The notes below the pieces were generated by a model. The model did not search any database, was not told the DNA's origin, and saw only the letters and a list, made by a program, of their open reading frames with translations. From Mycobacterium sp. 852014-50255_SCH5639931 (lineage in GTDB: Bacteria; Actinomycetota; Actinomycetes; Mycobacteriales; Mycobacteriaceae), in NCBI RefSeq assembly GCF_001665605.1, contig NZ_LZSV01000001.1:1-64000 (forward strand): DNA of 64,000 nucleotides. Reading direction: 5' to 3'. The position numbers and the translations under genes were made by a program. Positions 2,752 through 39,769 of this stretch are shown one piece after another. Each line of letters opens with the position of its first letter. The first letter of the stretch is position 1.

Positions 2752-4298
2752 CCCGCTTCATCAAGCGCCAGCTGGTCACGTTGAGCATCCTGACCGCGAT
2801 CATCGCGATTGCCCTGGGCTGGTACTACCTGCAGATTCCCACTGCGGTGGGGATCGGCCAGTACACGCTGAAGGCCGACCTACCCGCGTCCGGCGGTCTG
2901 TACAAGACGTCCAACGTGACTTACCGCGGTGAAACCATCGGCAAGGTCACCGCCGTCGAGCCAACCAAGACCGGCGCGCGGGTGACCATGAGTATCGCCA
3001 ACCGCTACAAGATTCCCGTCGACGCGTCGGCGAATGTGCATTCGGTGTCGGCGGTCGGCGAACAATATCTTGACCTGGTATCGGTAGGAAACCCGGGCAA
3101 ATTCTTCTCGACGGGACAGACCATCACCAAGGGCACCGTGCCCACAGCGATCGGGCCGGCGCTGGACGCCGCCAACCGCGAGCTGGCTGTACTGCCCAAG
3201 GAGAAGATGGCCGCGCTGCTCGACGAAACAGTCCAGGCGGTAGGCGGATTGGGTCCCGCGTTGCAACGACTGGTCGACGCGAGCCAGTCGATCGCCGGTG
3301 ACTTCAAGACCAACCTCTCCGACATCAACGACACCATCCAAAACTCCGGGCCGATCATCGACAGTCAGGTCAACTCCGGTGACTCGATCGAGCGCTACGC
3401 GCGCAACCTGAACAGCTTGGCCACGCAGGGCGGGCAAAATGACCAGCACGTGCAACGCATCCTCACCGGTGCGGCACCGACCCTTGATCAGGTCAACTCG
3501 GTGTTCAGCGATGTCCGCGAGACACTGCCGCAGACACTGGCAAACCTCGAAATCACGCTGGACATGCTCAAGCGCTACCACAAGGGCGTCGAGCAACTAC
3601 TGGTGGCCTATCCGCAGGGCGCCGCGGAAAGTCAGACGATCACGACGCCGTTCCCGGGCTACGCTGCGCTCGACACCGCGATGACGATGAACCAGCCCCC
3701 GCCGTGCCTGACCGGGTTTCTCCCGGCATCCCAGTGGCGATCTCCGGCGGATACCAGCCCGGCCCCGCTGCCATCCGGAACATTTTATTGCAAGATCCCG
3801 CAGGACACCCCTGCCAACGCGGTGCGCGGGGCACGCAACCTTCCGTGTGTCGACGTTCCCGGTAAACGAGCTGCGACGCCGCGTGAGTGCCGCGACCCCA
3901 AACCCTATGTTCCGTTGGGAACCAACCCGTGGTACGGCGACCCCAACCAGCTCATCACCTGCCCCGCGCCCGCGGCGCGCTGCGACCAGCCGGTGAAACC
4001 GGGGCTGGTGATACCCGCGCCGTCGGTCAACAACGGCCTCAACCCGGCGCCCTCCGACAGGGTGGCAGGGACGCCACCACCGATCAGCGATCTACTGCAA
4101 CGCCCGGGGTCGGGCACCGTCGAATGCAACGGGCAGCAGCCCAACCCCTGCGTCTACACCCCCAGCGGTCCTCCCCCGGCCGTTTACCTCCCCCAGAGCG
4201 GCGAACTGATAGGGCCCGATGGTGTCGAGTACACGGTCAAAAATTCGAGCGGAACAGGAGACGACGGCTGGAAGGACATGCTGGCGCCACCGGGTTGA
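2745..4298 (+). CDS. MCE family protein, MceF type
   Basis: Last MCE subunit of the operon, 517 aa. One N-terminal membrane helix (about residues 10-30) is followed by an MCE domain (about 40-130, with GGLYKTSNVTYRGETIGKV). A helical region of 250 or so residues follows, and then a Cys- and Pro-rich C-terminal part (CLTGFLPASQWRSPAD, CKIPQDTPANAVRGARNLPC) typical of MceF. The ATG at 2745 lies inside the end of the lipoprotein gene, which fixes the start. No mce-associated (mas) genes follow, so the operon ends here. MceF proteins are thought to line the lipid conduit; the substrate cannot be read from sequence. Confidence 0.9.
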   Translation: MLTRFIKRQLVTLSILTAIIAIALGWYYLQIPTAVGIGQYTLKADLPASGGLYKTSNVTYRGETIGKVTAVEPTKTGARVTMSIANRYKIPVDASANVHSVSAVGEQYLDLVSVGNPGKFFSTGQTITKGTVPTAIGPALDAANRELAVLPKEKMAALLDETVQAVGGLGPALQRLVDASQSIAGDFKTNLSDINDTIQNSGPIIDSQVNSGDSIERYARNLNSLATQGGQNDQHVQRILTGAAPTLDQVNSVFSDVRETLPQTLANLEITLDMLKRYHKGVEQLLVAYPQGAAESQTITTPFPGYAALDTAMTMNQPPPCLTGFLPASQWRSPADTSPAPLPSGTFYCKIPQDTPANAVRGARNLPCVDVPGKRAATPRECRDPKPYVPLGTNPWYGDPNQLITCPAPAARCDQPVKPGLVIPAPSVNNGLNPAPSDRVAGTPPPISDLLQRPGSGTVECNGQQPNPCVYTPSGPPPAVYLPQSGELIGPDGVEYTVKNSSGTGDDGWKDMLAPPG

Positions 4299-36595: not shown

Positions 36596-36994
36596 TTACA
36601 TTCCGAACTTGGCGCGGGCCTCGTCCGTCACCGGAGTGAACAGGTTGACCAGATTCCCATCGGGATCCCGCAGCAGCAACGCGCGATTACCCCACGGCAT
36701 CGTGGTCGGCGTTGTCACGACCTCCCCGACGCGCTCATGCAGCCGCTCATATTCCGCGTCGACGTCGTCGACCATGAACTCCACGATCGCACTGCGGTTG
36801 GCGGCCGGCTCGGCCGATCCGGCCGCAAACAGCGGCACGGTCTTGTCGCTGCCGATGGCCAGCGTGCCAACCGGCGTCGGAATTTCGGCGAAAAGCTCGT
36901 TGCCCCATACCGCGGGGGCCTCGGTGACCGTCTCGTAGAAATCGACAAGCCGCTTAACGTCGGCGGTGATGATGCGGGTGGAAACGAACTTCAT
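36596..36994 (-). CDS. VOC/glyoxalase-like protein
   Basis: 132 aa, two beta-alpha-beta-beta-beta modules of the vicinal oxygen chelate fold. Start MKFVSTRIITADVKRLVDFY, second module IVEFMVDDVDAEYERL, end ALLLRDPDGNLVNLFTPV, the last with the usual DPxGN turn and the position of a metal-binding Glu replaced by Asn/Leu. Activity may therefore be ligand binding and not catalysis. The start at 36994 has AGGAGGG 5 nt upstream; the frame is open further up without a better start. Single gene. Confidence 0.85.
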   Translation of the reverse strand: MKFVSTRIITADVKRLVDFYETVTEAPAVWGNELFAEIPTPVGTLAIGSDKTVPLFAAGSAEPAANRSAIVEFMVDDVDAEYERLHERVGEVVTTPTTMPWGNRALLLRDPDGNLVNLFTPVTDEARAKFGM

Positions 36995-37100
36995 GGAGCC
37001 CTCCTGGCAGCCGTGGCAGTGCAAGCTGGTGCGACGAGGGCATATTAAGGAACCCCGCCGACAAGATGGCCGCCTCAAAGGCGAACTACAGCGCGTTCCC

Positions 37101-37478
37101 TCAGGCCGGGGTCCAGATTCCGTTGTTCCAGAACCCCCAATTGCCCGCGCCCGTTGGATTCCACATCAGCTGAGCCCCCGGCGCCCATGCCGGCTGGGGT
37201 GGCGGCGGAGGCGCCCACGCGGGCGGCGGCCCCCAGGGTCCGGCACCCGCCGGGTAACTCTGTCCCGCCGGACCTTGCCAGTCGTGGCAGTGATTCCAGT
37301 CCCAGTTGTAGACCTTGCCCCAGCTCGGGTCCCACGGATTGCCCGGGCACCAATGCGAGGTCGGCGCGGCCTGAGCGAGGCCGCCCGCCAGCCCTAACGC
37401 GGACAACGCCAATCCACCACCCACCAGCACACCCGTCCACCACCGGCCCCACGGCCCCGCTTGTTTGACAGTCGCCAT
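37101..37478 (-). CDS. Secreted Trp/Pro-rich protein, unknown function
   Basis: 125 aa. Signal peptide with hydrophobic core GVLVGGGLALSALGLAGGLA and cleavage near AQAA (about residue 38). The mature part begins with a pattern seen in several mycobacterial exported proteins, HWCPGNPWDPSWGKVYNW, then DWNHCHDW (two Cys, likely a disulfide). A Pro-Ala-Trp stretch and the ending GFWNNGIWTPA follow. No catalytic motif. Confidence 0.75.
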   Translation of the reverse strand: MATVKQAGPWGRWWTGVLVGGGLALSALGLAGGLAQAAPTSHWCPGNPWDPSWGKVYNWDWNHCHDWQGPAGQSYPAGAGPWGPPPAWAPPPPPQPAWAPGAQLMWNPTGAGNWGFWNNGIWTPA

Positions 37479-37510: not shown

Positions 37511-37549
37511 CTAGACGTTGAAGCGGAACTCCACCACTTGCCGTCGGCC
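37511..37549 (-). repeat. Distal copy of the ychF 3' end (att-like direct repeat)
   Basis: Bases 37512-37537 are identical over 26 nt to 38697-38722, the last codons of ychF, and match for 12 more bases with one gap and one change. On the minus strand it reads the end of YchF (VEFRFNV) and an in-frame stop TAG at 37511-37513. It lies 1,185 bp beyond the real ychF end, with the FkbM gene between. Confidence 0.8.
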
Positions 37550-37695
37550 TACTCCACACGTGGTGACGGCTTATTCGTGTGCGGCCCACTAGCCGGAACC
37601 CTAAGCCCCCATAGGTTGGCATGGATATAACAGCGCAAATGTAAGTTCGTATTGCGCGTCGGTCGTGGCGACAGCTGTTCGCGAGATGCAGTGAG

Positions 37696-38550
37696 TCATG
37701 GGGAACGGGCCTCGTTCAAGAGTCGCAGGTAATGTTGCTGGGCCTCCGGCGCGAGCGCCTGCCGCTGCTCCAAGAGCATCACACAGCGCAACGTCAGGTC
37801 GACTGATCCATAGCAGTAATGCGATATCAGCGCCAGGTGCTTGAGCTGCTCGTCGGTCATCGATTCCGCGCTGGCAAAGTCGCGCACGTAGACAATGTCG
37901 GCCTCCAACAATTGGTTTGATCCTTCCCAAGGGATCTCATTGGCCAAGGCAGACGAGATTCGCCAGGGTTTCATATCGACGAAGCCGTGCGGAATGAACC
38001 CTTGCCCGCGAAGCTCCAAGTCAATATCTCCCAGCCCTGGCTGGTCCTCATACAACGTGACGAACGAGATCTCGGTCTGGATCACCACAGCCTCAGCCAG
38101 CTTCACCCTGCCCCCTCGGAAAGCTGCCAGCTCACCGCCTTGAATATCGATCTTCAGGAAGTCGAGGTGTTGTATCTCGAAAACGTCGTCGAGCCTGCAG
38201 GTTTGAACGGGAACGCGTTCGAGCACTTGTCCGAGCGGCTCGAGAACCCCGAAAAGACTCAATCTCGATGGATCCGGCTCAAGCAGACTCGTCAATCCCT
38301 TGCCCCGACAAATCTTGAGTGTCCGCGCCTCGCCATCACCCACCGCGTACGGCAGGTAACGCTCAGTGGGGCTGTTCCTCGCCACCAGCTTGTGGAGCGC
38401 GTCTTCCTGAGGCTCAAAGCCCGTGACACGGCATAGCCCCGCAGCAAGCAGTGGCATGTAGGGCGGCTCACCATCAATCATGTTCGCTCCCACATCGACT
38501 ACTTCGGTGAGGCGCTCAGGAGCCAACAAAGACTGCAACGACGCGTTCAT
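37696..38550 (-). CDS. FkbM family methyltransferase
   Basis: 284 aa SAM-dependent methyltransferase. VVDVGANMIDGEPPY supplies the nucleotide-binding loop, TGFEPQEDALHKL the acidic strand-2 end, and LDFLKIDIQGGELAAFRGG the FkbM hallmark (KIDxxGxE). FkbM enzymes O-methylate sugars or polyketides, often on surface glycans. Base composition is visibly lower in G+C than the neighbours, and the gene sits between two copies of the ychF 3' end, both suggesting transfer. The acceptor is unknown and no glycosyltransferase is nearby. Start MNASLQSLL at 38550 with GAAGATAAG upstream. Confidence 0.88.
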   Translation of the reverse strand: MNASLQSLLAPERLTEVVDVGANMIDGEPPYMPLLAAGLCRVTGFEPQEDALHKLVARNSPTERYLPYAVGDGEARTLKICRGKGLTSLLEPDPSRLSLFGVLEPLGQVLERVPVQTCRLDDVFEIQHLDFLKIDIQGGELAAFRGGRVKLAEAVVIQTEISFVTLYEDQPGLGDIDLELRGQGFIPHGFVDMKPWRISSALANEIPWEGSNQLLEADIVYVRDFASAESMTDEQLKHLALISHYCYGSVDLTLRCVMLLEQRQALAPEAQQHYLRLLNEARSP

Positions 38551-38695
38551 ATTCTTATCTTCATACCTAGCTCACGTAATCGGGCCGCTCCTGAAGAGAG
38601 TACGGCGATCAAGCTGTCTCCCCGCGTCGCAATGAATTCCGCGGTTCCTCGCTCGCGGTGAAGGCGTAGTGCCACCCCGTCGTCAGTGCTTCGAG

Positions 38696-38735
38696 TTAGA
38701 CGTTGAAGCGGAACTCCACCACGTCGCCGTCGGCC
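38696..38735 (-). repeat. Proximal copy of the ychF 3'-end repeat
   Basis: The functional 3' end of ychF, with stop TAA at 38696-38698. It pairs with the copy at 37511-37549: 26 identical bases and then a matching block (GCCGTCGGCC) after a one-base gap. The arrangement is that of an element inserted at a gene end while rebuilding it. Confidence 0.8.
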
Positions 38736-39769
38736 ATCACGTAGTCCTTGCCTTCCATCCTGACCTTGCCGGCCGCCTTGGCCGCGGCCATTGAACCGGC
38801 GGCGATCAGGTCGTCATAGGACACGACCTCGGCCTTGATGAAGCCCTTCTCGAAATCGGTGTGGATCACCCCGGCGGCCTTCGGCGCGGTGTCGCCTTGG
38901 TGAATCACCCACGCGCGCGCCTCTTTTGGGCCGGCCGTCAGAAATGTCTGCAGCTTGAGGGTGTGGAAACCCGCGCGGGCCAGCGCGTCGAGTCCGCGTT
39001 CGCTTTGCCCGATCGACTCCAGCAGTTCGGCGGCCGACTCGTCGTCGAGTTCGTTCAGCTCCGCTTCGATGGCCGCGTCCAGGAACACCGCGTCGGCGGG
39101 GGCGACCAGCTGACGCAGCTCGGCGATCCGCGCCGCGTCGGTCAGAACGGCCTCATCGGCGTTGAAGACGTAGAGAAACGGCTTGGTGGTCAACAGGTTC
39201 AGCTCCCGCAGCAAGGACGCATCCACCCCGGCGCCGAACAGCGTCTTCCCGCCGTTGAGCGTCTCCTGGGCCGCGGCCGCGACGTCGTATACCGGCCTGC
39301 GGTCCTTGTTGGTGCGGGCTTCCTTCTCCAGCCGCGGCAGAGCGCGCTCCAGGGTCTGCAGGTCGGCCAGGATCAACTCCGTCTCGACCACCTCGATGTC
39401 CGATCGGGGATCCACCTCACCGGCCACATGGGTCACATCGTCATCGGAGAACACCCGGACCACCTGGCAGATGGCGTCGCATTCGCGGATGTGGGCCAGG
39501 AACTTGTTGCCGAGCCCCGCCCCCTCGGACGCGCCCTTCACCAGGCCGGCGATGTCGACGAAGGTCACCGGCGCCGGCACGATGCGCTGGGATGCGAACA
39601 ACTCGGCGAGCTTGTCCAGGCGCGGATCGGGCAGCGGAACGACACCCTCGTTCGGTTCGATCGTCGCGAACGGATAGTTGGCCGCCAGTACGTCGTTGCG
39701 GGTCAGCGCGTTGAACAGAGTCGACTTACCGACGTTGGGCAGACCCACGATTCCCAGGCTCAGGCTCAC
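38696..39769 (-). CDS. ychF: Redox-regulated ATPase YchF (Obg-family)
   Basis: 357 aa, the standard length. Obg-related P-loop ATPase that binds ribosomes and is linked to stress responses. Walker A in GLPNVGKSTLFNALT (about residue 8), switch II VDIAGLVKGASEGAGLG, NADEAVL in place of the canonical NKxD (giving ATP preference), and the C-terminal TGS-like domain LQTFLTAGPKEARAW ending VEFRFNV. GTG start VSLSLGIVG. Its 3' end is duplicated 1.2 kb downstream. Equivalent to Rv1112; the toxin-antitoxin genes beside it in M. tuberculosis are absent. Confidence 0.95.
   Translation of the reverse strand: MSLSLGIVGLPNVGKSTLFNALTRNDVLAANYPFATIEPNEGVVPLPDPRLDKLAELFASQRIVPAPVTFVDIAGLVKGASEGAGLGNKFLAHIRECDAICQVVRVFSDDDVTHVAGEVDPRSDIEVVETELILADLQTLERALPRLEKEARTNKDRRPVYDVAAAAQETLNGGKTLFGAGVDASLLRELNLLTTKPFLYVFNADEAVLTDAARIAELRQLVAPADAVFLDAAIEAELNELDDESAAELLESIGQSERGLDALARAGFHTLKLQTFLTAGPKEARAWVIHQGDTAPKAAGVIHTDFEKGFIKAEVVSYDDLIAAGSMAAAKAAGKVRMEGKDYVMADGDVVEFRFNV

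Follow-up and report, generated by a model that had tools for sequence, protein, structure and literature searches.

A probable single-gene insertion at the 3′ end of ychF in a Mycobacterium genome, and sequence evidence for an integration hotspot at this gene end in actinobacteria

How did a second copy of the last bases of ychF come to lie on the far side of a neighbouring methyltransferase gene? The question is raised by a 64,000-nucleotide stretch of DNA from Mycobacterium sp. 852014-50255_SCH5639931 (contig NZ_LZSV01000001.1, positions 1 to 64,000; hereafter, the window). An earlier note, made from the letters alone, had claimed that an element entered ychF at its 3′ end and rebuilt the gene. 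That claim is supported by an empty site in one related genome, by different cargo at the same junction in another, by arrays of ychF-end copies, and by integrases that adjoin the same core elsewhere. We put a probability of roughly 80% on the following reading: that the window holds a 1.2-kb insertion of one gene, the fkbM segment, located exactly at the ychF 3′ end, and that this insertion likely arose through site-specific recombination with the matching copy on a mobile element, which we predict to have been phage-satellite-like and to have used a tyrosine integrase.

The target gene, ychF, encodes a GTPase and occupies positions 38,696–39,769 on the minus strand. Its product matches PF06071 and PF01926 and is readable up to the stop codon, with an intact C-terminal FNV. 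The final 26 nt, TAGACGTTGAAGCGGAACTCCACCAC, at 38,697–38,722, recur identically and on the same strand at 37,512–37,537, and have no other site in the 5.38 Mb genome at ≤3 mismatches; 100 dinucleotide-preserving shuffles of the window gave no match to them. After a mismatch and a 1-nt length difference (GTC in the proximal copy, TT in the distal one), both copies continue with GCCGTCGGCC (38,726–38,735 and 37,540–37,549, respectively). The proximal copy, a candidate attL, thus spans 38,697–38,735 and the distal copy, a candidate attR, 37,512–37,549, both on the minus strand. Each ends ychF with a stop codon, which is TAA in the proximal copy and TAG in the distal copy. The exact repeat, the near match beyond it and the two different stops are all as the earlier note had described them.

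The inserted segment itself (37,550–38,695) contains a single intact open reading frame, at 37,696–38,550 on the minus strand and therefore co-directional with ychF, which encodes a 284-aa protein with an FkbM methyltransferase domain (PF05050, E 6e-22). Its composition is lower in G+C, as had been asserted: 58.1% for 37,538–38,696, versus 67.1% for the window and 66.0% for ychF. GC3 is likewise lower than in ychF (0.70 vs. 0.87), but GC3 alone is a weak indicator, because the neighbouring DUF998 gene is equally low (0.71). Beyond the distal copy lie a small gene that belongs to no Pfam family (37,101–37,478, minus strand) and a gene of the VOC/glyoxalase family by Pfam (36,596–37,006, minus strand). 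No tRNA gene was found within the window. A Pfam search and inspection of the open reading frames revealed no recognised phage gene in the insert, only fkbM, and, in agreement with the earlier note, there was no integrase in the insert or adjoining it.

The comparison with related genomes was suggested by the same note, which proposed looking for strains with a single repeat copy and for other cargo between the same repeats; both were found. In genome G038, the stop codon of ychF is followed directly by the small outer-flank gene that lies beyond the distal copy in the window, so that the site has a single copy, no fkbM, and reads TAG plus flank. In genome G036, that gene adjoins a distal copy and the outer junction is the same as in the window, but the segment is a different one of 1.5 kb with an AHSA1-domain gene; identity downstream is ~90%. 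A crossover inside the repeat would be expected to leave the outer copy with the right side of the chromosomal site (TAG) and to give the inner copy that of the insert (TAA), which is the arrangement seen. The note had also named two findings that would speak against insertion, namely that all related species have both repeat copies and fkbM at this site, with no empty site, and that the distal copy is the remnant of a full ychF duplication. G038 disposes of the first, and we rejected the second, since the distal copy comprises at most about 40 nt of ychF and has no ychF homology past these last ~40 nt. Transposition of an IS with target duplication was rejected as well: there is no inverted-repeat pair at the insert borders, and the only gene of the insert matches the FkbM family and no other.

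The nearest annotated relatives of the fkbM product come from M. paraffinicum (93%) and M. mantenii (90%), and the next-best homologues in the genus sample share 62–67% identity. At 29 loci with a homologue, there was no ychF-end core within ~1.5 kb at ≤5 mismatches, and at three more the best match had 8–10 mismatches. Among the genomes examined, fkbM was found between ychF ends in the window only.

We surveyed 248 sampled genomes of the genus with the 26-mer at ≤3 mismatches. It was present in 191 of them, and 23 genomes, counting that of the window, had it two to four times, always with the copies of a genome on a single strand; 23 of 248 is the multi-copy figure that is free of locus-selection bias. 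The reversed pattern, used as a control, gave none among the matches listed. A closer comparison was made of 114 ychF loci, a non-random set in which 16 were chosen for their several copies and the others because the position of ychF or of the gene after it was known (another seven that were fetched, four plus three, had no ychF match and were left out). At ≤6 mismatches, 52 of the 114 loci had at least one further ychF-end copy, giving 76 copies in total, of which those at 5–6 mismatches are individually uncertain. When the search was made with the last 26 bases of each locus' own ychF, there were 52 forward recurrences in 40 loci and one in reverse, whereas nine internal ychF 26-mers gave 0–2 forward recurrences (reverse 0–1, except for one with 7). 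Across 72 distal copies, conservation falls to background directly past the stop codon. Five more ychF-end copies (≤5 mismatches), all in one direction, lie downstream of ychF in Nocardia farcinica (L178, NZ_LN868939.1), so that arrays are not restricted to mycobacteria.

The segments between the copies have a median length of 781 bp (10–90% range 465–1868 bp) and often hold one gene. In 76 segments, the best open reading frame ran in the direction of ychF in 50 and opposed to it in 12, while 14 had none above the score cut-off. Pfam families named in a chosen set of segment open reading frames included methyltransferases, nitrile hydratase beta, short-chain dehydrogenase, glyoxalase, CMD, Phd/YefM with a ParE-like partner, PIN and DUF1801, together with AbiTii, RibD_C, SnoaL-like, APH-like, Arr-ms, AAA/CPT-like, MIP and Cys_rich_CPCC. 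A whole segment was common, core to core, to the two members of 16 genome pairs, and in seven of these at different array positions; some segments thus shared recur in a different species. The shared segment was more similar than ychF in nine pairs (in two by <0.2 points) and less similar in seven. The recurrence fits movement of units in some cases, short of proof.

Which enzymes act at this core? Core scans of viral contigs and phage records revealed three contigs in which a large serine integrase (PF00239 plus PF07508) adjoins a ychF-end core, and from these three integrases we built a profile, A1. At E 1e-90 or better, it matched in 38 of the 248 genus genomes and at 71 loci of titled genome records. 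A core (≤6 mismatches) was located just upstream of the integrase start, in divergent orientation, at 39 of the 98 loci that had a serine-integrase match, a count that includes duplicates and corresponds to 34 distinct left arms; ten of the 39 belong to the genus, which contributed 30 loci to the set. The distance from core to integrase start was 10–48 nt. Among 64 titled-genome loci with a clear integrase, the core was ≤150 nt from the start in 27 and the ychF stop ≤600 nt away in 13, with two loci in both groups, and ychF was within the fetched stretch in 34, versus ~0.4% expected per random 20 kb. Hosts with a core-adjacent serine integrase include Mycobacterium, Mycolicibacterium hodleri, Pseudonocardia, Nocardia, Sinomonas, Jiangella, Brevibacterium, Gordonia, Cellulomonas and Phycicoccus. 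Several of the matches in a scan of a plasmid collection were ychF genes.

The distance between ychF and the core on the integrase side was 5.3–11.0 kb at eleven loci. Two of these elements (L239 and L241) encode a terminase and a major head protein, and L239 additionally a portal protein; in L242 and L245 a terminase was recognised among the proteins tested. On the ychF side, L241 has a gene for an Abi_alpha/PDC-S47 protein, L245 one for a type IIG restriction enzyme, and L239 one that matched no Pfam or PHROGs family. We compared the ends of seven elements. In six, attL and attR have in common only GGTSGAGTTCCG plus a few neighbouring bases, and the FNV end of YchF is replaced by a tail from the element, for example FGSTSTSKG (six of seven: L239, L241, L242, L244, L247, L280); the seventh, L253, retains FNV. 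When attP was reconstructed for all seven, a dyad appeared at a single centre, between core positions +3 and +4 (0.56, vs. 0.16–0.32 at 15 other centres), and attB has no such peak. Moreover, a CAACGT motif lies 5 bp further out in attP than in attB in L239, L241 and L244. It is a known rule for large serine integrases that the attP half-site is 5 bp longer. From the dyad and the longer half-site, we predict that the serine-class crossover occurs at the GT dinucleotide, at core +3/+4.

Several observations touch on this class. Element-type YchF tails (FGSTSTSKG, FQATSGQQKK, HGATTKSR) occur at nine of the 114 genus loci (G133, G239, G223, G061, G060, G180, G054, G214, G152), and none of the five integrases tested had a match within the fetched stretch at these nine. 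Distal copies with a serine-type left arm are found behind an FNV-ended ychF in G007, G134, G235, G127, G164 and others, though serine elements usually alter FNV. About 4.8 kb past ychF, L069 (G224) has a C-terminal serine-integrase fragment whose end lies ~10 nt from a distal copy. The serine integrase of a second branch (Rothia, Actinomyces, Schaalia, Tessaracoccus, a Bifidobacterium MAG and others) begins 14–49 nt past the ychF stop and is co-directional with ychF, a layout that mirrors the mycobacterial one (L256, L258–L260, L262, L263, L266, L268, L273, L277, L287, L292).

The second class is that of tyrosine integrases. In the Streptomyces satellite Mulchroom, a ychF-end core lies 84 nt from the satellite's own tyrosine integrase, and the left arm of this core resembles that of ychF, with the FNV end complete, so that a copy would keep FNV. 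A different family of tyrosine integrases adjoins the core on its 3′ side in L174, in the G039 locus flank (84% identity over 103 aa) and on the one contig of L250/L251, and pieces of it persist at ychF in G016 and G066. At three places, a single ychF-end core is flanked by a serine element and a tyrosine element: L174 (1386–4007), L208 (G039) and L250/L251. A search for close viral relatives of the L174 serine integrase returned only itself. In the 248 genomes we found three L174-type tyrosine integrases that are intact (E 1e-80 or better), none at a recognisable core (best 8–9 mismatches). We rejected the cores of L171, L172 and L174 as attP sites: the first two run into apparent host genes and the third into a second element, and we therefore read all three as junctions of the attR type. 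A true attP is likely carried by Mulchroom and by its relative L176. Such comparisons indicate that the 3′ end of ychF is an integration hotspot, used by two integrase families in actinobacteria and occupied by stacked short segments in mycobacteria.

The layout in the window resembles that of the tyrosine (Mulchroom) class more than that of the serine class, and the former fits better, because YchF ends in FNV and the left arm of the distal copy (GGCCGACGGC) resembles that of ychF, from which it differs in length by 1 nt. An arm classifier applied to the 76 distal copies assigned 21 to the serine arm (at the 1% false-positive level), 12 to the ychF arm and 43 to neither; the distal copy of the window was among the unclassed, with a serine score of −13.2 against a threshold of −2.4. 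PF07508, the serine recombinase domain, had no match in the window's genome, and its six PF00589 matches are all on other contigs. The Mulchroom integrase gave only a 22-bit local match there.

We propose that the 3′ end of ychF recombined with the matching copy on a mobile element, an event that would have kept ychF intact and duplicated its end beyond the insert. The actor would have been one of the two integrase types seen at the core elsewhere, and presumably the tyrosine type, given the FNV end and the ychF-like left arm that the window shares with the Mulchroom layout. Because no integrase adjoins the insert, this causal step is one that we infer; with the cognate enzyme missing, the window is best regarded as a product or remnant rather than as an autonomous element. 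The integrase may have been lost later or may have acted in trans, and the cargo would be co-transcribed with ychF. Counting against our proposal, besides the missing integrase, are the unclassed distal arm, the lack of a recognisable core at the three intact L174-type integrases, and the 29 fkbM homologue loci without a core. A bolder version, offered tentatively since we think it rather doubtful, is that actinobacteria capture gene cassettes at this site without integron parts: the ychF end would serve as the dock, both integrase families would act in trans, single genes with a ychF-end copy would travel from species to species and stack downstream of ychF, and the fkbM unit of the window would be one such cassette. 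If so, ychF would supply transcription of the stacked genes.

The most serious competitor, which we rate at somewhat under even odds, is decay, in which a large satellite or prophage at the ychF end lost all but one accessory gene while its borders survived by chance or selection. In its favour are the intact 5–11 kb elements at the ychF end and the integrase relics at ychF in G016, G066 and G224; the gene on the ychF side in L241 and L245 is of defence type, and the nine tailed YchF proteins without a match to the five integrases tested in the fetched stretch point the same way. However, repeated independent decay explains less well that the segments are short and alike in size and that whole segments recur core to core, in seven of 16 pairs at different positions, and the window insert lacks a recognised phage gene. 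An unlikely alternative on present evidence is that a serine-integrase element inserted and that recombination later restored the FNV end. In its favour are the 21 serine-type distal copies, several of them behind a normal ychF, and L253, which did retain FNV, yet six of the seven serine elements alter this end, and the distal arm of the window scores below the serine threshold.

We consider it very improbable that RecA-type or illegitimate recombination with an incoming ychF end and its downstream gene produced the insert without any integrase. While the site in the window's genome has no integrase, and ychF-end DNA is present in all relatives, the repeat does not run past the stop codon and takes in only ~40 nt of ychF, copies recur across the genus at one spot, and dedicated integrases are found at the same core. 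We find it barely credible that the unit is a cassette of the integron type that ends in a folded attC. The units do look like integron cassettes, being short, often single-gene, mostly in one direction, recurring in varied order and ending in a common site. Unlike attC, however, none of 26 distal sites, each folded by itself, had a z-score below −2 for either strand, and attC-like folding was accordingly rejected; by Pfam, the core-adjacent recombinases are phage-type serine and tyrosine integrases. A tyrosine-recombinase motif scan of the 98 loci gave no hit, and a search of ychF loci with five integrases gave phage-type relics only.

Phages and islands insert at the 3′ ends of genes, among them tRNA genes, which are familiar docking sites of mobile elements, and icd, the target of phage 21 and e14. 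The ychF locus resembles these cases in its gene-end direct repeats at both borders and in the gene staying readable; it differs in the target, in the two integrase families and in the mostly sub-kb to 2-kb segments in tandem stacks. A survey of mycobacterial prophages (PMC10654092) describes in its main text candidate PICIs, some with serine integrases, and the word ychF is absent from that main text. The ychF-end elements are like these candidates in having an integrase and, where shown (L239, L241), a capsid gene; the window unit, in contrast, has no phage gene, and the combination of integrase with a packaging or capsid gene is seen in L239 and L241 but not here. Mulchroom, described with MiniFlayer among Streptomyces satellites in a paper whose main text names no attP, attB, ychF or other att site (PMC10690885), measures 14.8 kb, versus 1.2 kb for the window unit, although a ychF-end core is present in both. 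Accretion of AICEs at a tRNA-Arg gene, as described in PMC9513070, is similar in that several elements are stacked at one site between direct repeats, but those elements are conjugative or remnants of conjugative ones, and their target is a tRNA gene. The pneumococcal prophage between dnaN and ychF lies on the promoter side of ychF (PMC6375853). In the literature searched, which covered main texts and few subscription papers, no paper described attachment at the 3′ end of ychF.

At this site, two unrelated integrase families have settled on the same target, the end of a universal protein-coding gene, in many actinobacteria. Its use accounts for part of the mycobacterial gene content downstream of ychF and alters the YchF C-terminus in some lineages. 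The site also offers integrase/site pairs that can be tested, and is a place to watch short cargo, such as defence genes, toxin–antitoxin pairs and methyltransferases, being gained and lost. Toxin–antitoxin cargo (Phd/YefM with a ParE-like partner; PIN) recurs in L064 (G089), L107 (G164) and L115 (G229), and the vapBC pair just downstream of ychF in M. tuberculosis may be a case of the same phenomenon. Finally, one ychF segment (in L130, from G156) holds at 2848–3258 a gene for an Arr-ms protein of the rifampin ADP-ribosyltransferase family; the distal copy of this segment is weak, with 6 mismatches.
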